Source: Microlunatus sagamiharensis (GTDB taxonomy: Bacteria; Actinomycetota; Actinomycetes; Propionibacteriales; Propionibacteriaceae). Taken from it: a DNA stretch of 64,000 nt. The stretch spans positions 3,162,001 through 3,226,000 of the forward strand of contig NZ_LT629799.1 in the NCBI RefSeq assembly GCF_900105785.1. Direction: 5' to 3'. The translations under genes were made by a program, and so were the position numbers. Positions 4,155 through 62,839 of this stretch are shown in pieces (the stretch's first letter is position 1; every line of letters starts with the position of its first letter). The notes beneath the pieces are model-generated. The model did no database searches and was not told where the DNA came from. It saw nothing but the letters and a program-made list of their open reading frames with translations.

Positions 4155-5501
4155 ATGAGCCAACCGCCGCAGGACCGCCCGCAGGACCAGCCCGAGGGGC
4201 GCCCGCAGGGCGGCCCGGGTGCTCAGCAGCCCGGGCAGGGCGGGCCGCAGGGCGGCTACCCGCCGGCTCCCGGTGGCGGCTACCCGCAGGGACCTCAGGG
4301 GTACCCCCAGGGCGGCTACCCGCAGCAGGGGCCCCAGGGCTACCCGCAGCAGGGCGGCTACCCCGGGCAGCCGGGCCGACCCGGTCCGCAGGGGTACGCC
4401 GGCGGACCGTACGGCCCCGGGCAGCCGGGTGGCCCGTACGGCCCCGGGGCGCAGCCGCCGTCCGGCCGGCCCCCGTACGGCCAGCCCCCGCAGCCGCAGG
4501 GTCCCAAGAAGCGGACCGGGCTCCTCGTGCTCATCGGCGCCGGGGCGCTCGCCCTGGTCCTCGCCGTGGTCGCGGTCGCGGTGAACCTCGGTGGTCGCGA
4601 CGACAGCGCGGGCGGTTCGTCGACGAGCCAGGCGCCCGAGGCGAGCAAGCCCTCCGACGCCGTCCGGGGGTTCCTCGAGGCGGTCGCCGCCAACGACTCC
4701 GCCCGCGCGCTGGGCTACGTCTACAAGCCGCCGTCCGACACCACCTTCCTGACCGACGTGGCCCTGCAGGCGTCGTCGAAGATCGCCCCGATGACGGACA
4801 TCTCGGTGCCCGAGGTGGACCAGATGACCGCCGCCACCGTCCCGGCGACCTTCTCGCTCGGCGGCAAGTCCTACACCCGCGAGTTCACCCCCTTCCGCGA
4901 CGGCGACAACTGGAAGGTCTACGACGGGGTGAGCGAGGTCAGCGTGGGTTACCGCCGTGCGCAGACGCTGCCGATGCTGGTCAACGGGACCAAGGTGGAG
5001 GCCGACAGCGTGTTCCTCGTCCCCGGGACGTACGTCTTCACCACCGGCTCCAAGTGGGTCTCCTACGGCTCGTCGAACAAGCTCGTGGCGACCGAGCAGT
5101 ACGTCTCGCTCCCCCAGGAGCTCCAGCCGACGCTGACGAAGGACGGGTCGAAGGCCGTGCTGTCGAAGACGAAGTCGGCCTTCGAGTCCTGCCTGAAGCA
5201 GCACAAGCTCAAGCCGAAGGGCTGCCCCAACCGGATCGACGACACGCGGGGCATCAAGGTCGACGAGAGCACCGTGCGGTGGCGGGTGACGAAGGACCCG
5301 TTCCGCAACGCGAAGCTCCGGCTCGACAGCACCGACCCCACCGTGGCGGAGGGCACCTTCTACCCCGAGTACCGGATCAAGTTCCGCGGTTCGCAGAACG
5401 GCCGGACCGGGACCGTGGACAGCGACGTCACCGGGCTGTACTCGTTCAGCGCGGTGGCCGACCTGTCGAAGTCGAGCGTGAGCGTCAAGCTCGAGGGCTG
5501 A
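4155..5501 (+). CDS. Pro/Gly/Gln/Tyr-rich single-pass membrane protein
   Basis: Predicted 448-residue protein. Residues 1 to about 118 are a low-complexity PQG/GGYP-rich cytoplasmic tail with repeated GGYPQ/QGYPQ units. A single membrane helix ([18 protein letters not shown]) follows near residues 122-145, then an extracytoplasmic domain of about 300 residues. The early part of that domain ([18 protein letters not shown]) resembles the NTF2/DUF4878-type folds that often follow such helices in actinobacteria. The architecture is common in secreted or signalling-associated proteins, but no function can be assigned. ATG at 4155 chosen as the first methionine before the low-complexity region. Confidence 0.8.
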
Positions 5502-5528
5502 GCACCCCGGGGCGTCGGAGCCCGTCAG

Positions 5529-5534
5529 TAGCAT
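5529..5534 (+). promoter_or_regulatory. Leaderless -10 element (TAGCAT) of M13 peptidase
   Basis: TAGCAT ends seven bases before the GTG start at 5542, placing the expected transcription start at or next to the start codon. There is no Shine-Dalgarno sequence. The same geometry recurs at several genes in the window. Confidence 0.55.
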
Positions 5535-5541
5535 CGCAGCC

Positions 5542-7527
5542 GTGACGCAGACCGCTGACGAGACCGTGCCCACCCCCGACGTCCCGGCGCTCGACGTGTC
5601 CGACCTCGACCCCGCGGTCCGCCCCCAGGACGACCTCTACCGCCACGTCAACGGGGCCTGGATCGCGCGCACGCCGATCCCGGAGGACAAGCCGATGACG
5701 GGCGCGTTCGTGCAGCTGCGCGACGCCTCCGAGCAGGCCGTGCGCGACATCATCACGACGATCGAGCCGGGTGCGGTGGGCAGCGAGGCCCAGCAGATCG
5801 CCGACCTCTACGCGAGCTTCATGGACGCCGACGCGGTCGAGGCGGCGGGCGCCTCGCCGCTCGCCGAGCCGCTCGCCGCGATCGCGGCGGTGGGCTCGGC
5901 CGAGGAGCTCCTCGGCCTGGTCGGGCGCCACACCCGCCGCGGCGTCCGGGGCCTGCTCGACCTCGAGGCCGAGTCCGACCCGGGCGACCCGTCCCGCTCG
6001 GTGATGTTCGTCGGCCAGGGCGGCCTCGGGCTGCCCGACGAGGAGTACTACCGCCTCGAGGACTACGCCGACATCCGCCGGGCGTACCGCGACCACGTCG
6101 CCCGCTCGCTGGCCCTCGCCGGCCTCGACGACGCCGAGGCCCGGGCCGACGCGGTCCTCGCGCTCGAGACCGATGTGGCGGCCTGCCACTGGGACAAGGT
6201 CCGCACGCGCGACCTGCGCGAGATGTACAACCTGATGACCCTGCGCCAGCTCGAGGAGTCCGCGCCCGGGCTGCCCTTCGTCGCCTGGCTCGACGGGCTC
6301 GGGGTGCCGCACGAGGCCGTCGCCGAGCTCGTCGTGACCCAGCCGTCGTTCTTCTCCGACGTCGCGGGGCTGCTGACGCCCGAGCGGCTGCCGGACTGGC
6401 GCTCGTGGGCGGCCTGGAGCCTGGTCTCGTCGCGCTCGCCCTACCTCGCCTCCGCCTTCGTGCAGGAGCGCTTCGGCTTCTACGGCACCGTCCTGTCCGG
6501 CACGCCGGTGCTCAAGGAGCGCTGGAAGCGCGGTGTCGACCTGGTCGAGGGCGCGCTCGGCGAGGCCGTCGGCCGGGTGTACGTCGAGCGGCACTTCTCC
6601 CCCGTCGCCAAGGAGCGGATGGACACCCTGGTCGCCAACCTCATCGAGGCGTACCGGCGCTCCATCACCGGCCTGGAGTGGATGACCGACGAGACCCGCG
6701 AGCGAGCGCTCGACAAGCTGGGCAAGTTCCGGAGCAAGATCGGCTACCCCACGCGCTGGCGCGACTACAGCAGCCTCGAGATCGTCCCCGGCGACCTGAT
6801 CGGCAACGTGGAGCGCGCCACGGCCTTCTCCGTCGAGCGCGACATCGCCAAGATCGGCGCGCCGGTCGACCGCGAGGAGTGGCTGATGACGCCGCAGACG
6901 GTCAACGCCTACTACCACCCGCTGCGCAACGAGATCGTCTTCCCCGCGGCCATCCTGCAGCCGCCGTTCTTCAGCGAGACCGCCGATGACGCGGTCAACT
7001 ACGGCGGCATCGGCGCGGTCATCGGCCACGAGATCGGGCACGGCTTCGACGACCAGGGCTCGACCTGCGACGGCGACGGCCGCCTGCAGAACTGGTGGAC
7101 CGACGCCGACCGCACCGCCTTCGAGGAGCTCACCAAGGTGCTCGTCGAGCAGTACGACGCCCTCAGCCCGCAGCAGGCGCCGGACCTGCACGTCAACGGT
7201 TCGCTGACCATCGGCGAGAACATCGGCGACCTCGGCGGCCTGGCCATCGCCCACCTCGCCCACGCGATCGCCCAGGAGGGCGCGGAGGCGGGCGAGATCG
7301 ACGGCTACACCCCCGACCAGCGGCTGTTCCTGTCCTGGGCGACGGTCTGGCAGACCAAGAGCCGCGACGAGCTGGTCCGCCAGCGCCTGGCGACCGACCC
7401 GCACTCGCCGCCGGAGTTCCGCTGCAACCAGATCGTCCGCAACCTCGACCCCTTCTACGCGGCGTTCGACCTGGCCCCGGGCGACGGCCTGTGGCTCGAC
7501 CCGGAGCAGCGCGTCAGCATCTGGTGA
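5542..7527 (+). CDS. M13 (neprilysin/PepO) family zinc endopeptidase
   Basis: Predicted 661-residue metallopeptidase. The zinc motif HEIGH lies at residues 496-500 within GHEIGHGFDDQG, and the third-ligand motif ENIGD is at 559-563, both diagnostic of M13. The C-terminus 'FRCNQIVRNLDPFYAAFDL' also fits the family. Full length for bacterial PepO-like enzymes. No signal peptide or membrane anchor is visible, so a cytoplasmic oligopeptidase is likely, as for many actinobacterial members. GTG start supported by the -10 element seven bases upstream. Stands alone between the membrane protein and an SDR gene. Confidence 0.93.
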   Translation: MTQTADETVPTPDVPALDVSDLDPAVRPQDDLYRHVNGAWIARTPIPEDKPMTGAFVQLRDASEQAVRDIITTIEPGAVGSEAQQIADLYASFMDADAVEAAGASPLAEPLAAIAAVGSAEELLGLVGRHTRRGVRGLLDLEAESDPGDPSRSVMFVGQGGLGLPDEEYYRLEDYADIRRAYRDHVARSLALAGLDDAEARADAVLALETDVAACHWDKVRTRDLREMYNLMTLRQLEESAPGLPFVAWLDGLGVPHEAVAELVVTQPSFFSDVAGLLTPERLPDWRSWAAWSLVSSRSPYLASAFVQERFGFYGTVLSGTPVLKERWKRGVDLVEGALGEAVGRVYVERHFSPVAKERMDTLVANLIEAYRRSITGLEWMTDETRERALDKLGKFRSKIGYPTRWRDYSSLEIVPGDLIGNVERATAFSVERDIAKIGAPVDREEWLMTPQTVNAYYHPLRNEIVFPAAILQPPFFSETADDAVNYGGIGAVIGHEIGHGFDDQGSTCDGDGRLQNWWTDADRTAFEELTKVLVEQYDALSPQQAPDLHVNGSLTIGENIGDLGGLAIAHLAHAIAQEGAEAGEIDGYTPDQRLFLSWATVWQTKSRDELVRQRLATDPHSPPEFRCNQIVRNLDPFYAAFDLAPGDGLWLDPEQRVSIW

Positions 7528-29243: not shown

Positions 29244-29281
29244 GCGCCATCGCCGCGGCGCGGAAGCGGCTCCAGACGTGA

Positions 29282-29331
29282 CGAGAGTCAGCGACTGCCT
29301 GCTCGGGGGTTCAGGTAGTCGCTGACTCTCG
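29282..29331. terminator. Hairpin, 20-bp stem, after the prenyl reductase gene
   Basis: Arms 29282-29301 and 29312-29331 (CGAGAGTCAGCGACT with its complement) pair over 20 positions with one G-T wobble and a 10-base loop. It begins 39 bases after the reductase stop, suitable for a terminator. No T-tract. Confidence 0.6.
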
Positions 29332-29373
29332 ACACTCCTATCGCCGCGCCGGTGTGCGGCGTTACCGATCCGG

Positions 29374-57538: not shown

Positions 57539-57665
57539 GCCGCTCTCCTGTCCTCTTTATGACATGATCTGCGCAGCGTCGCCACGCCGTTGCGAGCGTA
57601 GCCGCACGCGTCGGTCCGGAGATCCCTCCCCCAGACCCTGGTCGCCGACGCGGGAGGGCCGACCC

Positions 57666-58631
57666 GTGCTGGAGCCGTTGGGCATCCCCGCTGATGCCGA
57701 GGCGCTGTACGTCGTGCTCGCAGCCCTGGAGGACACCTCGCCCGAGGAGCTGGCGGTGCGCACCTCGCTGAGCGCGCACCAGGTCGGCACCCACCTCGAC
57801 ACCCTCGCCGACCTCGGGCTCGCGGTCGCCCTCGGCCGCGGCCGGTGGAAGGCCCTCCCCCTCACCGACGTGGTCAAGGGCCTCAAGGCACGCCGCGTGG
57901 CCGAGATCGAGGCGGCGGCCATCGCCGCGGACACCCTCCACAACCAGATCCTGGCCGCCTCGCACAGCACCGAGGACGACGTGCAGGTCTTCGTCGGCCA
58001 GACGTCGTACGCCGAGTACACGCGGCTGTGCAACGAGACCGTCGACGAGATCTGCCTGTTCGACAAACCCCCGTACGTCGGCGGGCCCTCGATGCTGTCG
58101 ATCGAGGAGCTGCGGGAGCAGTCCGGGGAGTGGCGGGCGCTGGAGCGCGGCGTCTCCCAGCGCAGCGTCTACCACCCGGGCTTCGACCCCGAGCGGCTCA
58201 AGGAGATGGCGCTCTTCGCGCAGGTCGGGGAGAAGTCGCGGACCGCGCCCGTCCCGATGAAGCTCGTGCTCTTCGACGCGAAGATCGCCTGGATCCCCTC
58301 GATGCCGTCCTACATGCCCGGGCACGAGCGGCGGGCGAGCTTCGTGCGGCACCCGCTGATCGTGGAGTCGCTCGTCTGGCTCTTCAACGCGGTGTGGGAC
58401 ACGGCCATCCCGATCACGGCGGGCACCTACCTGAACGGCGACCCGCGCCGGCAGATGCTGATCTCGCTGATGATGAGCGGCTCCACCGACGACGCGATCG
58501 CCAACCAGCTGGGCATCAACGTCCGCTCGGTGCGGCGCTGGATCGCCGAGCTGATGGACGAGCTCGGGGTGACCACCCGCCTGCAGCTCGGCGCCGCCCT
58601 CGTGCGCGCGGACTCGATGCGCAACCCCTAG
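57666..58631 (+). CDS. LuxR-type HTH regulator with N-terminal winged-helix domain
   Basis: Predicted 321 residues. The N-terminus (residues about 10-70) is a TrmB-like winged helix ('AYVVLAALEDTSPEELAVRTSLSAHQVGTHLDTLADLGL'-like), followed by a sensor-like middle (residues 100-240). The C-terminal GerE/LuxR helix-turn-helix ends it (TDDAIANQLGINVRSVRRWI). No receiver domain, so control by ligand or protein is likely. GTG start at 57666. It faces a 48-residue secreted-peptide gene across a shared terminator; the peptide promoter has direct repeats suited to such a regulator. Confidence 0.82.
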   Translation: MLEPLGIPADAEALYVVLAALEDTSPEELAVRTSLSAHQVGTHLDTLADLGLAVALGRGRWKALPLTDVVKGLKARRVAEIEAAAIAADTLHNQILAASHSTEDDVQVFVGQTSYAEYTRLCNETVDEICLFDKPPYVGGPSMLSIEELREQSGEWRALERGVSQRSVYHPGFDPERLKEMALFAQVGEKSRTAPVPMKLVLFDAKIAWIPSMPSYMPGHERRASFVRHPLIVESLVWLFNAVWDTAIPITAGTYLNGDPRRQMLISLMMSGSTDDAIANQLGINVRSVRRWIAELMDELGVTTRLQLGAALVRADSMRNP

Positions 58632-58657
58632 CGGGAGACGCCCGAGCCCGGGCAGCA

Positions 58658-58689
58658 CGAAGGGCACCTCCCGGAGGAGGTGCCCTTCG
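58658..58689. terminator. Strong hairpin between the regulator and peptide genes
   Basis: CGAAGGGCACCTCC (58658-58671) and its exact complement (58676-58689) make a perfect 14-bp stem with a CGGA loop. It lies between convergent genes and probably terminates both. Confidence 0.8.
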
Positions 58690-58753
58690 CGTACCGACGT
58701 CGAGGCTCCCGCTCAGGGGGCCTTCGCCGGCCGGAGCCGGCCGGCCGGGTGGA

Positions 58754-58900
58754 TCAGTAGCCGCGGCCCTGGAAGACGGCCTTCGCCACGGTGGCCGCGT
58801 CGGCCGGCGCGCCCAGGAAGACCAGCGCCAGCGCCGCACCGGCGACGGTGGAGGTGGCGGCGACGCGGACGGCCTTGCGGGCGTTGAAGGAGGAGAACAT
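58754..58900 (-). CDS. Small secreted peptide precursor, 48 residues
   Basis: A 49-codon frame with AAGGAA before its ATG at 58900. The n-region is basic (FNARKAVR), the h-region is VAATSTVAGAALALVFLG, and A33-D34-A35 is a good signal-peptidase I site, leaving a 13-residue basic peptide, ATVAKAVFQGRGY. The transcript unit is unusually well defined: promoter, 13-bp leader hairpin, strong ribosome binding site and terminator. No family recognised. A secreted signal or antimicrobial peptide is possible; a structural or stray secreted peptide cannot be excluded. Confidence 0.65.
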   Translation of the reverse strand: MFSSFNARKAVRVAATSTVAGAALALVFLGAPADAATVAKAVFQGRGY

Positions 58901-58918
58901 GAGAATTCCTTTCGCTTT

Positions 58919-58955
58919 CGGCCGTCAGTGCGAGATTTTTTTGCACTGACGGCCG
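58919..58955 (-). promoter_or_regulatory. Leader hairpin of the secreted-peptide mRNA
   Basis: CGGCCGTCAGTGC (58919-58931) and its exact complement (58943-58955) form a 13-bp stem; the loop is A-rich in the minus-strand mRNA (AAAAAAATCTC). It ends just upstream of the ribosome binding site, so it may stabilise the mRNA or gate translation. Confidence 0.65.
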
Positions 58956-58974
58956 TGTTGGGGGGTCGTTCTGA

Positions 58975-59003
58975 ACGCTATGCGAATCGGGCACGCTCGT
59001 CAC
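58975..59003 (-). promoter_or_regulatory. Promoter of the secreted-peptide gene (-35 GTGACG, -10 TAGCGT)
   Basis: On the minus strand GTGACG (58998-59003) and TAGCGT (58975-58980) are separated by exactly 17 bases. Transcription would start near 58968, giving a 68-base leader containing the hairpin. Confidence 0.55.
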
Positions 59004-59021
59004 GCCGAGAGACTGTCAGGT

Positions 59022-59050
59022 AGCGGACATGCCATGAAGCGGACATGGCA
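59022..59050. repeat. Direct repeats AGCGGACATGCCA / AGCGGACATGGCA upstream of the peptide promoter
   Basis: Two 13-mers (59022-59034 and 59038-59050) differ at one position and are offset by 16 bases. They lie about 54-82 bases upstream of the predicted transcription start, a typical activator position. Confidence 0.6.
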
Positions 59051-59054
59051 AAAT

Positions 59055-59084
59055 CGCGTTAGGTGCTGTACCTGACCTAACGCG
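59055..59084. repeat. Inverted repeat CGCGTTAGGT / ACCTAACGCG
   Basis: Perfect 10-bp arms (59055-59064 and 59075-59084) around 10 bases that themselves contain ACCT. It is next to the direct repeats, so a second regulator may bind here. The rest of 59085-59409 holds no feature I can support apart from the protease promoter. Confidence 0.5.
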
Positions 59085-59409: not shown

Positions 59410-60903
59410 ATGACGCCCACCGCAGACGCTGATCGTCGAAGCCCGCAAGCGATCCGCTGCAGCTTCGTCCCGCCCTACCTGCTGCGACGCCTCGCCGAGA
59501 GCGACCCCGGCAGACGCCTGCTGGCCGACGGCCGCGACACGCTCGCCGTGGACGAGCGGATGCGCTCGCGCCGCGAGGCGGCCACCGCGACCACGGCCCC
59601 GGCGGTCCCGGACACGGGCGGCAACCGCGTGGTCTACGACGCCGGCGGCGCCGAGGAGCTGCCCGGGCGCCGGGCGCGCGACGAGGACGACCCAGCCACG
59701 GGGGACGCGGCCGTCGACGAGGCGCACGCGCACTCCGGCGTCTCGTGGGACCTCTTCGCGGAGGTCTTCGACCGTCCGTCGGTCGACGGCCGGGGCACGC
59801 CGCTGACGGTGACCGTGCACTACGGCCGCGACTACGACAACGCGTTCTGGGACGGCGAGCAGCTCGTGTTCGGCGACGGCGACGGCGAGGTCTTCGACCG
59901 CTTCACCAAGCCGCTCGACGTGACGGCGCACGAGTTCACCCACGGGGTCACGCAGTTCAGCGCCGGCCTGACCTACCAGGGCCAGTCCGGCGCGCTGAAC
60001 GAGAGCGTGAGCGACGTCTTCGCCTCGCTGGCCAAGCAGCGCTCCCTCGGACAGGACGCCTCGCAGGCCGACTGGCTGATCGGGCAGGGGCTCTTCATGC
60101 CCGACGTCAAGGCCACCGCGCTGCGCTCGATGCTCGAGCCGGGCACCGCGTACGACGACCCCCGCCTGGGGCGCGACCCGCAGGTCGGCAGCATGGACGA
60201 CTACGTCGACACCGAGGAGGACAACGGCGGGGTCCACCTCAACTCGGGCATCCCCAACCGCGCCTTCGCCCTCGCGGCGCGCGCGATCGGCGGACCGAGC
60301 TGGGAGAAGGCCGGCCAGGTCTGGTACGCGGCGCTGACCGGCGGGGCGGTGACGCCCTCGACCGACTTCGAGGGGTTCGCGGCCGCGACCGTGGACGCGG
60401 CCGCCCGGCTCTACCCCGAGGACACCTCGGTGGCCGACCACGTCCGGGAGGCCTGGCAGCAGGTCGGGCTCGCGCGCGGCACCCAGGCGGTCGCGGCCCA
60501 GACCCCGCCGAGCGGTGGTCCGGCTCCCGCGGGCCCGGGGGGCGGCAGCCCGTCGGCGAAGCCGCAGGCTCCGGCCGGTGCGCCCGACCCGGTGGGATCG
60601 GCCGGCGTCCCGTCGCTGCCCGGCCAGCCGGGGGACGACGTCGTCGCCGTGCGGCGCTCGGGCGGCTTCACGGGCGCCTCGCAGTTCGCCCAGCTCAGCC
60701 TCACCGACGACCCGGCCGGGACCGAGCTGCGGCGCCTCCTGGACCAGATCAGCGTGTCCGACCTGGGCCGCTCGGAGCCGCAGCCCGACCGGTTCACCTA
60801 CACCGTCGCGTGCCGGTCCTTCGAGCTCACCGTGCCCGAGCAGGACCTGACGCCCGAGCTCACCCGGGTCGTGCAGATCGTGCTCGACCAGCGCGCACGG
60901 TGA
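59410..60903 (+). CDS. M4 (protealysin-like) metallopeptidase with C-terminal emfourin-type inhibitor domain
   Basis: Predicted 497 residues. There is no signal peptide; the N-terminus has CSFVPPYLLRRLAES, like the short propeptide of protealysin-type enzymes. The thermolysin zinc motif is H174-E-F-T-H178, with third ligand E198 in GALNESVSDVF. After a Pro/Gly/Ala linker (about 355-408), residues 411-497 (VVAVRRSGGFTG ... PDRFTYTV) resemble emfourin, the protein inhibitor of protealysin, usually a separate gene. ATG at 59410 follows CACTGT by six bases (leaderless pattern). Confidence 0.85.
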   Translation: MTPTADADRRSPQAIRCSFVPPYLLRRLAESDPGRRLLADGRDTLAVDERMRSRREAATATTAPAVPDTGGNRVVYDAGGAEELPGRRARDEDDPATGDAAVDEAHAHSGVSWDLFAEVFDRPSVDGRGTPLTVTVHYGRDYDNAFWDGEQLVFGDGDGEVFDRFTKPLDVTAHEFTHGVTQFSAGLTYQGQSGALNESVSDVFASLAKQRSLGQDASQADWLIGQGLFMPDVKATALRSMLEPGTAYDDPRLGRDPQVGSMDDYVDTEEDNGGVHLNSGIPNRAFALAARAIGGPSWEKAGQVWYAALTGGAVTPSTDFEGFAAATVDAAARLYPEDTSVADHVREAWQQVGLARGTQAVAAQTPPSGGPAPAGPGGGSPSAKPQAPAGAPDPVGSAGVPSLPGQPGDDVVAVRRSGGFTGASQFAQLSLTDDPAGTELRRLLDQISVSDLGRSEPQPDRFTYTVACRSFELTVPEQDLTPELTRVVQIVLDQRAR

Positions 60904-62125: not shown

Positions 62126-62839
62126 TCAGACGAGCTCGGAGAGCACGAGGTAGATCAGGAAGCCGACGAAGAACCCGACGCTGCCGATGCTCGTCTCGCC
62201 CTTGGCGTGGGCCTCGACGAGCAGCTCCTCGGTCGCGAGGTACATGAAGGCGACCGCGCCGAAGGCGAGGACGCCGGCCAGGACGGACGGGCTCGCGGAG
62301 GCGAGCAGCACCACGCCCAGCGCGGTCCCGACGACGGTCAGCAGCGCGAGCACGACCGGGGCGAGCGCCACGAAGCGCCGAGTGACCGAGCCGGCCAGGC
62401 TCGCCGACAGCGACAGACCGACGAACAGGTACTCCACGGCCAGCGCGACCGTGAGCAGGACCCCGACCCGCTGCTCGGCCGCGAAGCCGGCACCGAGGAT
62501 CAGCCCGTCGATGAAGAAGTCGACGCCGATCGCGACGGCGAGCCCGATCGGCAGCCCGGCGCGCCCGGAGGTCGCACGCCGCTCCTCGAGCCGCTCGCCG
62601 ACCGCACGGAAGCCGAACATCACCGCGATGCCCACCGCGAAGCCGACGACGGCGACGAGGGGCGAGCGCTCCAGCACCCCGGGCAGCAGCTCGATCGCCG
62701 CGGCCGCGAAGACCACGCCGGCGGCGAAGTGCTGCAGCCCGCTGGTGAGCCGGACCCCGGGTGGCCGCAGCGCCGCGACCGCGCCCGACACCGCCGCCGC
62801 GAGCACCGGGACGAGGGCGAGCAGCAGCACGACTCCCAC
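62126..62839 (-). CDS. ZIP-like metal permease lacking canonical histidines
   Basis: Predicted 237-residue protein with about eight helices. The overall pattern (LQHFAAGVVFAAAAIELLP, then helices 4 and 5) is that of ZIP permeases. The metal-site motifs HNxxEG and HExPEG are replaced by VDFFIDG and VEYLFVG, with acidic residues but no histidine. Either transport chemistry is altered or function is non-transport. GTG start at 62839; the ankyrin gene ends ten bases upstream on the same strand. Confidence 0.75.
   Translation of the reverse strand: MGVVLLLALVPVLAAAVSGAVAALRPPGVRLTSGLQHFAAGVVFAAAAIELLPGVLERSPLVAVVGFAVGIAVMFGFRAVGERLEERRATSGRAGLPIGLAVAIGVDFFIDGLILGAGFAAEQRVGVLLTVALAVEYLFVGLSLSASLAGSVTRRFVALAPVVLALLTVVGTALGVVLLASASPSVLAGVLAFGAVAFMYLATEELLVEAHAKGETSIGSVGFFVGFLIYLVLSELV

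Follow-up and report, generated by a model that had tools for sequence, protein, structure and literature searches.

Why should a gene of only 48 codons, facing a regulator gene, be surrounded by so much control sequence? The question is raised by a locus in a 64,000-nucleotide stretch of Microlunatus sagamiharensis DNA (hereafter the window; G000:C1:3162001-3226000 of a single-contig 4.4-Mb genome), for which an initial annotation made from the letters alone had suggested that a winged-helix/LuxR-type regulator senses a small secreted peptide, or controls its gene. To answer it we compared 20 Microlunatus genomes (G000, the window's own, and G090-G108), with G047 and G048 representing the sister genus. 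That interpretation is partly supported. Control of the peptide gene is supported by a common operator with fixed promoter geometry, and a convergent peptide frame faces the regulator in 19 of the 20 genomes, as the proposed co-occurrence predicted. Our tentative answer, which we put somewhat short of an even chance, is an autoinducing circuit in which the regulator would activate the peptide gene and sense a processed peptide bearing its C-terminal motif; the activation part is argued from promoter geometry, and the ligand part we infer. The elements of the gene pair are as follows.

57666..58631, plus strand: TrmB-type regulator with a C-terminal LuxR-type helix-turn-helix (HTH), from translation, profiles and a structure model
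58658..58689, no strand: perfect 14-bp inverted repeat with a 4-nt loop between the convergent genes, likely a shared terminator
58754..58900, minus strand: 48-residue peptide precursor gene, from translation and conservation in relatives
58757..58795, minus strand: predicted mature 13-mer ATVAKAVFQGRGY with C-terminal GRGY, cut site by inspection
58906..58912, minus strand: AAAGGAA, a plausible ribosome-binding site, from sequence
58919..58955, minus strand: mRNA leader hairpin, perfect 13 bp with an 11-nt loop, from sequence

Comparison with relatives confirms at the sequence level that the peptide frame is more than a chance one. It translates as originally described, to MFSSFNARKAVRVAATSTVAGAALALVFLGAPADA followed, after the predicted signal-peptide cut, by ATVAKAVFQGRGY; signal peptides and cleavage sites, here and across the genus, were assigned by inspection. 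A frame at the same position is found in G094 (81% identity, E 6.6e-18) and G090 (65%, E 2.2e-13), so that both the frame and its signal-like N-terminus, whose conservation had been proposed beforehand as a test, are kept in relatives. The predicted mature part is 13 residues long and ends in an identical GRGY in these three nearest species, the relatives' ends being ATVTGAIFAGRGY and AQVVRVVQLGRGY. Codon position 3 is the commonest site of differences in all three pairwise comparisons; constraint is modest, with synonymous and non-synonymous changed codons numbering 10/9, 11/17 and 12/16, the non-synonymous exceeding the synonymous in two of the three. The other local elements that had been called, namely the ribosome-binding site, the 14-bp repeat taken as a terminator and the leader hairpin, are all present, and the hairpin is restored despite base changes in G090 and G094. 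A comparable inverted repeat is visible in M. flavus (L021). A frame open by chance, or an artefact of annotation, might be suspected in so short a gene in GC-rich DNA; we consider this barely credible, as genus-wide conservation covers the frame and its position as well as the ribosome-binding site, the operator and the -10 spacing. No further copies of the peptide were found elsewhere in its own genome. A family-wide search gave matches in 16 of 198 genomes at E<=0.1, strong only in G000, G094 and G090; the matches in the other 13 family genomes (E 0.01-0.1) and a second match in G090 were dropped as weak.

The regulator was correctly recognized as carrying a winged HTH and a LuxR-type HTH, and its description is corrected by a phospholipase D (PLD)-like domain between the two. 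Its layout is a winged HTH (residues ~1-65), a helix, a PLD-like effector domain (~105-250) and a LuxR/GerE-type HTH (~251-321), the arrangement of a TrmB protein (winged HTH, then PLD-like domain) with the C-terminal GerE-type HTH of the LuxR/GerE family. Orthologues occur in all 20 Microlunatus genomes (partial in G103, at a contig end) and in the sister-genus genomes G047 and G048; the 20 orthologues share 44-89% identity, the M. flavus copy being at 89%. With a single sequence, all Pfam HTH matches fall below their cut-offs (GerE 19.3 bits versus 23.5). The alignment profile matches the GerE chain 1fse at E 1.3e-5 over residues 260-317, and TrmBL2 weakly, at E ~0.008 over residues 12-133. 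A structure model (pLDDT, the predicted local distance difference test, 78.8; predicted template-modelling score, pTM, 0.60; 21 sequences in the alignment) matched TrmBL2 (E 6e-13), the PLD-family nuclease Nuc (E 3e-7) and TrmB in Foldseek. These matches are domain by domain, and the template-modelling score over the whole query is low at 0.36, so the arrangement of the domains is unsure. The fold comparison also aligns the PLD-like domain with the sugar-binding domain of TrmB, which makes ligand binding by the regulator plausible on the model.

What the peptides share across the genus is a tetrapeptide. We translated the strand opposite each regulator orthologue and picked the motif by eye for each species; the stop-to-stop distance between the convergent frames is 28-377 nt. 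The peptide sequences diverge widely, with the tetrapeptide as the conserved part. It forms the exact C-terminus in 16 of 19 peptides and is repeated in 16 of 19, the copies being distributed as follows.

GRGY, one copy: G000, G094, G090
GRGI, two copies: G091; GRGV, two copies: G096
VNGV, six copies: G105; seven copies: G107
VNSI, two copies: G098; VNSL, three copies: G108
AHNL, 20 copies: G104
GHTL, eight copies: G102; GHSL, eight copies: G103
GNSL, 12 copies: G099
ANGL, seven copies: G106 (cut by the contig end)
INGV, 23 copies: G095; VNGL, 16 copies: G093
LNGA, 27 copies: G092; VNGF, 20 copies: G101
INGS: G100, repeats spread over two frames

A signal peptide was recognized in 15 precursors, that of G106 being unjudgeable at the contig end. 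Many copies of the tetrapeptide differ at the DNA level, with 6 distinct versions among 6 in G105, 9 among 12 in G099, 17 among the 23 counted in G092, 10 among 16 in G093 and 7 among 8 in G102; there are fewer in G104 (5 of 20), G095 (5 of 23), G107 (3 of 7) and G103 (3 of 8). Because copies differ synonymously, which would otherwise be hard to explain, the tetrapeptide looks to be under selection at the amino-acid level. Between sister species the motifs vary only in similar last residues (GRGI/GRGV and VNSI/VNSL).

Repeat peptides of this kind were also sought beside paralogous regulators. At 28 paralogue loci from other genera, outside the family (L085-L093 and L094-L112), no repeat peptide was among the frames that passed filters. 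The filter for L085-L093 kept short frames with a hydrophobic stretch only, so that signal-less peptides would escape it there, and the output for L094-L112 included one 387-residue frame with a four-fold VAVD word that is not a tandem repeat. At 13 within-family paralogue loci (L054-L066), for which only words containing N or GRG were counted, two frames were returned, a GRG-containing one at L061 and one at L063. The L063 frame (G093, 4731-5780) lies near a paralogous regulator and encodes a 349-residue oxidoreductase-like protein with a short TTNPD tandem repeat at its start. It is a partial counter-example to the paralogue-locus control.

The form of these precursors bears on two other possible functions. 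The longest, which carry as many as 27 copies, are reminiscent of low-complexity surface proteins, and a structural or adhesive role as a secreted cell-surface protein could be proposed. We consider this unlikely, given that the window's form is a single 13-mer, that 16 of 19 peptides retain the free C-terminal motif and that three forms have no signal peptide. An antimicrobial or bacteriocin-like peptide with a dedicated regulator, as the initial annotation had also suggested, would be in keeping with a small, secreted-looking, hypervariable and tightly controlled product. No specific support for antimicrobial action emerged: by eye, no conserved immunity or export gene was recognized beside the peptide among the called genes, the transporter-like membrane genes a few kb away in some loci (62126-62839 in the window, and in G095 and G103) are not common to all, conservation is confined to the four C-terminal residues, and the window peptide matches nothing in Pfam or NCBIfam. 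We rate this explanation as very unlikely.

How is the peptide gene controlled? The promoter region contains the following elements.

58975..58980, minus strand: -10 box TAGCGT (TANNNT), 33 nt from the operator, from comparison
59014..59045, no strand: tandem operator of two abutting 16-bp dyads TGTCC-N6-GGACA, 3 mismatches of 20
59055..59084, no strand: 10-bp inverted repeat CGCGTTAGGT/ACCTAACGCG beside the operator, from sequence

The 13-mer direct repeats first noted here are present at 59014-59045, and are corrected to the two abutting dyads. The 17-bp-spaced promoter that had been called is corrected too: simple scans of the locus for consensus sigma-70 promoters and intrinsic terminators gave no matches; comparative evidence was then used, and through the TAGCGT box it points to a transcript start near 58968, in agreement with the original placement. 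The operator centre lies ~61.5 nt upstream of this predicted start, a classical activator position. The pattern TGTCC-N6-GGACATGTCC-N6-GGACA is found in all 18 available peptide upstream regions with 0-5 mismatches of 20, placed 107-129 nt ahead of the start codon (the G106 upstream region lies off its contig, leaving 18 of the 19 peptide genes). None of 3600 Markov shuffles matched the peptide-gene operators as well. A TANNNT hexamer follows 33-35 nt past the operator in 18 of 18 promoters, where for G102, whose best-scoring register is shifted by one dyad of 16 bp, the corrected register was used. At <=3 mismatches there are 63 operator sites genus-wide versus 3 for the reversed pattern, and every one of the 20 genomes has at least one. 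Family-wide, 20 of 20 Microlunatus genomes carry the operator versus 5 of 177 others, each with one site of 2-3 mismatches; the latter is chance level, because the reversed-pattern control matches 4 of 177. G047 and G048, counted among the 177, have operator sites with 4 mismatches. Co-occurrence and neighbourhood together suggest that the regulator binds the tandem operator.

Additional elements accompany these promoters. The 10-bp inverted repeat is present as originally reported, reading ACGCGTTAGG...CCTAACGCGATTTT, and CCTAACGCGATTT is found in 9 of 18 peptide promoters. Upstream of the regulator itself there is a further candidate site.

57549..57564, no strand: single half-operator TGTCC-N6-TGACA, 117 nt ahead of the regulator's start; autoregulation is possible

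With one mismatch this half-operator occurs at the window's own locus and in G094 and G090, at -117 to -123 and with a shuffle fraction of 0.007-0.010; the remaining 18 of 21 regulator loci show 2-4 mismatches. In both G091 and G096, operator sites also lie near small similar genes (L162/L165 and L160/L167), encoding 74- and 85-residue frames that start MTQH and an 84-residue membrane-like protein.

Not all operator sites are next to called gene starts; a few even fall between convergent genes, and such sites lead to a family of hairpin RNAs. Among 45 distinct operator sites, 13 are followed by a hairpin of 13-19 bp whose loop is AACCCCCGAG, the distance to the first such hairpin being mostly 44-47 nt, and three more by a hairpin with the same loop and imperfect stems. 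A loose control is provided by 531 random 220-nt stretches from these loci, 51 of which contain a C-loop hairpin of any kind; the exact loop, in all 21 of its occurrences in the examined loci, sits within a stem. All 16 pairs of the stem covary in 18 sequences, 95.5% being paired compared with 38-48% in slid controls, although these sequences had been picked as hairpins. The resulting covariance model matches 20 of 20 Microlunatus genomes, with 15 matches in the window's own genome, and in an order-wide draw it matched 19 Microlunatus genomes and none of 372 others. Within the window's genome the matches are as follows.

29280-29333 of the window, minus strand: hairpin RNA, from the covariance model
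G000:C1 1572941, 2625869, 2626128, 2626406, 2864907, 1444523, 1440042: other hairpins
G000:C1 432056, 939267, 941512, 2581408, 2581460, 2378868, 150111: other hairpins

The operator had been one of the grounds for selecting the DNA that supplied a set of 70 distinct hairpins; in this set, 31 hairpins have an operator (<=6 mismatches) at a fixed distance and 39 do not, and many of the latter have, by eye, a CRP-like TGTGA-N6-TCACA upstream. Of 24 operator-linked hairpin promoters, 19 have a TANNNT hexamer 32-34 nt from the operator, from which the hairpin transcript would begin at the stem. Two more hairpin loci of the window's genome have weaker operators (L211, 4 mismatches; L208, 5). A scan of the window against Rfam returned nothing at gathering thresholds. 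Identity with 6C RNA (RF01066) was considered and rejected, with no match in 20 Microlunatus genomes at E<=0.001, in a search of limited sensitivity (of 14 control genomes, Corynebacterium glutamicum alone matches, below the cut-off). Targets perfectly complementary to the loop are likewise unsupported, since CTCGGGGGTT occurs 16 times in the window's genome, 13 of them within hairpins.

Where did the peptide gene come from? The usual gene order is gnd, regulator, peptide, operator and a divergent M4 protease with a C-terminal emfourin domain, represented in the window by the following gene.

59410..60903, plus strand: M4 (protealysin-type) metalloprotease fused to an emfourin domain, divergent neighbour, from Pfam

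The window copy, the one searched against Pfam, has both the Peptidase_M4 and the emfourin domains of an emfourin-linked M4 protease, with PF01447, PF02868 and PF20242 all above cut-off. By resemblance, 13 of the 17 Microlunatus loci drawn have an M4-protease-like gene nearby; the only frame called there in G095 is an emfourin-like remnant of 125 residues, and G098, G108 and G099 have other genes. A second operator lies ahead of the M4 gene or the emfourin remnant in G092, G093, G095, G100 and G101; the window genome has none there. In place of the peptide, a secreted tripeptidyl aminopeptidase (TAP)-like peptidase follows the operator in G097, the only Microlunatus genome without the peptide, and in the sister-genus genomes G047 and G048 (Pfam on the G048 copy). 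With G047/G048 as root, the earliest branches of the regulator tree are G047/G048 and G097, with support of 80/64 for the G097 fork. Compared with the G097 enzyme, the signal sequences of 5 of 15 peptides score above all 66 unrelated ones (best 42), clearly in G105 (73), G099 (64) and G107 (54) and barely in G104 (44) and G090 (43). For G092 (42) and G000 (40), 1 and 4 of the 66, respectively, score as high or higher, and the signal sequences of G091, G093, G096, G098, G101 and G108 show no resemblance, 34-60 of the 66 being as good. We read this as a secreted tripeptidyl aminopeptidase gene having been converted into a precursor gene, with support that covers part of the genus. Among 16 genomes searched, G047 and G048 match the G097 enzyme at 53-66% identity, and no match in the 13 that carry the peptide exceeds 43%. 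In G048 (L132) and G047 (L073) the TAP-like protein carries DGQIS/DGQIL tandem repeats internally, ahead of the TAP-like C-terminal part, a stretch absent from the G097 peptidase.

These neighbours suggest the main alternative explanation, that the product is an extracellular effector. The regulator would respond to a different ligand, a sugar or peptide as with TrmB proteins, and switch on genes for extracellular proteolysis; the repeat peptide would be a former tripeptidyl aminopeptidase that has lost the body of the enzyme and now serves extracellularly as a protease substrate, decoy or inhibitor. The peptidase behind the operator in G097 and the sister genus, the DGQI repeats in G047 and G048, the basal place of the peptidase-carrying lineages, the five matching signal sequences, and the M4-like genes, with their own operator in five species, all favor it. 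On its own it does not account for the exact C-terminal tetrapeptide, for sister-species changes limited to similar residues, or for the hairpin RNAs in the regulon. We regard it as a serious candidate, yet on the doubtful side.

In the autoinducing circuit that we tentatively prefer, the regulator would bind the tandem operator and activate the peptide gene. Export of the precursor, through Sec for those with a signal peptide, would be followed by trimming, perhaps by extracellular proteases, into short peptides with the motif at their end; these would be re-imported and bind the PLD-like domain, giving positive feedback. The output would be the hairpin RNAs and, in some species, the M4 protease, and in the window's genome the precursor would supply one unit, ending GRGY. 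Sensing of the peptide by the regulator fits a motif that is C-terminal, repeated and lineage-specific. Several observations weigh against this circuit. First, the regulator can work without a peptide, as G097 and the sister genus carry the peptidase there. Three of 19 precursors (G092, G100, G101) do not end in the motif, and 3 of the 18 with a visible N-terminus (G095, G102, G103) have no obvious signal peptide. The half-operator is found upstream of the regulator gene in just 3 of 21 loci, and the promoter at the own genome's second operator (hairpin 2378868-2378920) has no TANNNT. Additionally, the species with GRG-type motifs fall into two separate clades of the regulator tree, so that the motif does not simply follow the regulator. 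Conservation of the PLD-like domain is middling (mean majority identity 0.68, versus 0.57 for the winged HTH and 0.75 for the LuxR-type HTH), though the receptor of a variable ligand might vary most there. Neither the two-clade motifs nor this middling variability is predicted by a simple arms race between receptor and ligand. Between signal and effector the balance is close, and the motif being the exact C-terminus tips it toward a signal.

A wider proposal, which we hold more loosely, is an Actinobacterial class of pheromones in which a TrmB/PLD regulator with a LuxR-type HTH would sense approximately tetrapeptides cut from precursors of up to 27 copies, with lineage 'dialects' such as GRGY, VNGV, VNSL and AHNL, derived from a tripeptidyl aminopeptidase gene and having C-loop hairpin RNAs as output. 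If true, it would be an Actinobacterial counterpart to the peptide signaling of Bacillota, with an unrelated receptor fold and four-residue dialects indicating an independent origin, and its natural motif variants would be ready for tests of specificity. Even if the peptide is not the ligand, a genus-wide regulon is defined with a precise operator and promoter geometry, along with a structured RNA family that had no annotation and what appears to be the change of an enzyme gene into a repeat-peptide gene. The open-access literature gave no account of such a peptide family or regulator-peptide pairing, subscription papers being outside the search.

The closest known parallel is the RRNPPA systems of Bacillota (Rap-Phr, PlcR-PapR, NprR, AimR), which combine repeat-carrying propeptides with cytosolic receptors (PMC9765709, PMC11343458). 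There too a receptor gene adjoins a small exported propeptide gene, the pheromone is mostly C-terminal, a propeptide may hold several mature copies, and extracellular proteases carry out the maturation (PMC9765709, PMC11343458), a step whose Microlunatus counterpart is proposed. An adjoining propeptide gene is found in 19 of 20 Microlunatus genomes, with export judged by inspection and 3 of 18 N-termini having no signal. The tandem tetratricopeptide repeat (TPR) domain that binds peptide in RRNPPA receptors is missing from the regulator: neither Pfam nor NCBIfam gives a TPR match up to E 1, and the listed fold matches are TrmB and PLD-like. The module is therefore not an RRNPPA member. It differs further in belonging to Actinobacteria, in its convergent orientation, in its winged HTH, PLD-like and LuxR-type HTH architecture, in a motif of about four residues in up to 27 copies, and in the hairpin RNAs of its regulon; peptide binding is proposed only. 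By analogy, a module working like RRNPPA with tandem propeptides is the best reading. The archaeal regulators TrmB and TrmBL2 share the winged HTH followed by a PLD-like domain, whereas the Microlunatus protein adds the C-terminal LuxR-type HTH and a predicted activator geometry. The hairpins resemble 6C RNA (RF01066) and the Streptomyces small RNAs with C-rich loops, which are described as stem-loops with C-rich loops, sometimes two in tandem (PMC4046766, PMC3765725). 6C RNA is reported to belong to the GlxR network of C. glutamicum (PMC4046766, PMC3765725), which may be set beside the CRP-like sites seen upstream of many operator-less hairpins. Unlike 6C RNA, the Microlunatus hairpins have the invariant 10-nt loop, reach 15 copies per genome and are limited to Microlunatus in the set searched. 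Finally, the M4 and emfourin domains of the window's neighbour recall the protealysin/emfourin pair (PMC9505478); protease and inhibitor domain share one frame in the window, whereas in Serratia they are separate genes of one operon (PMC9505478).

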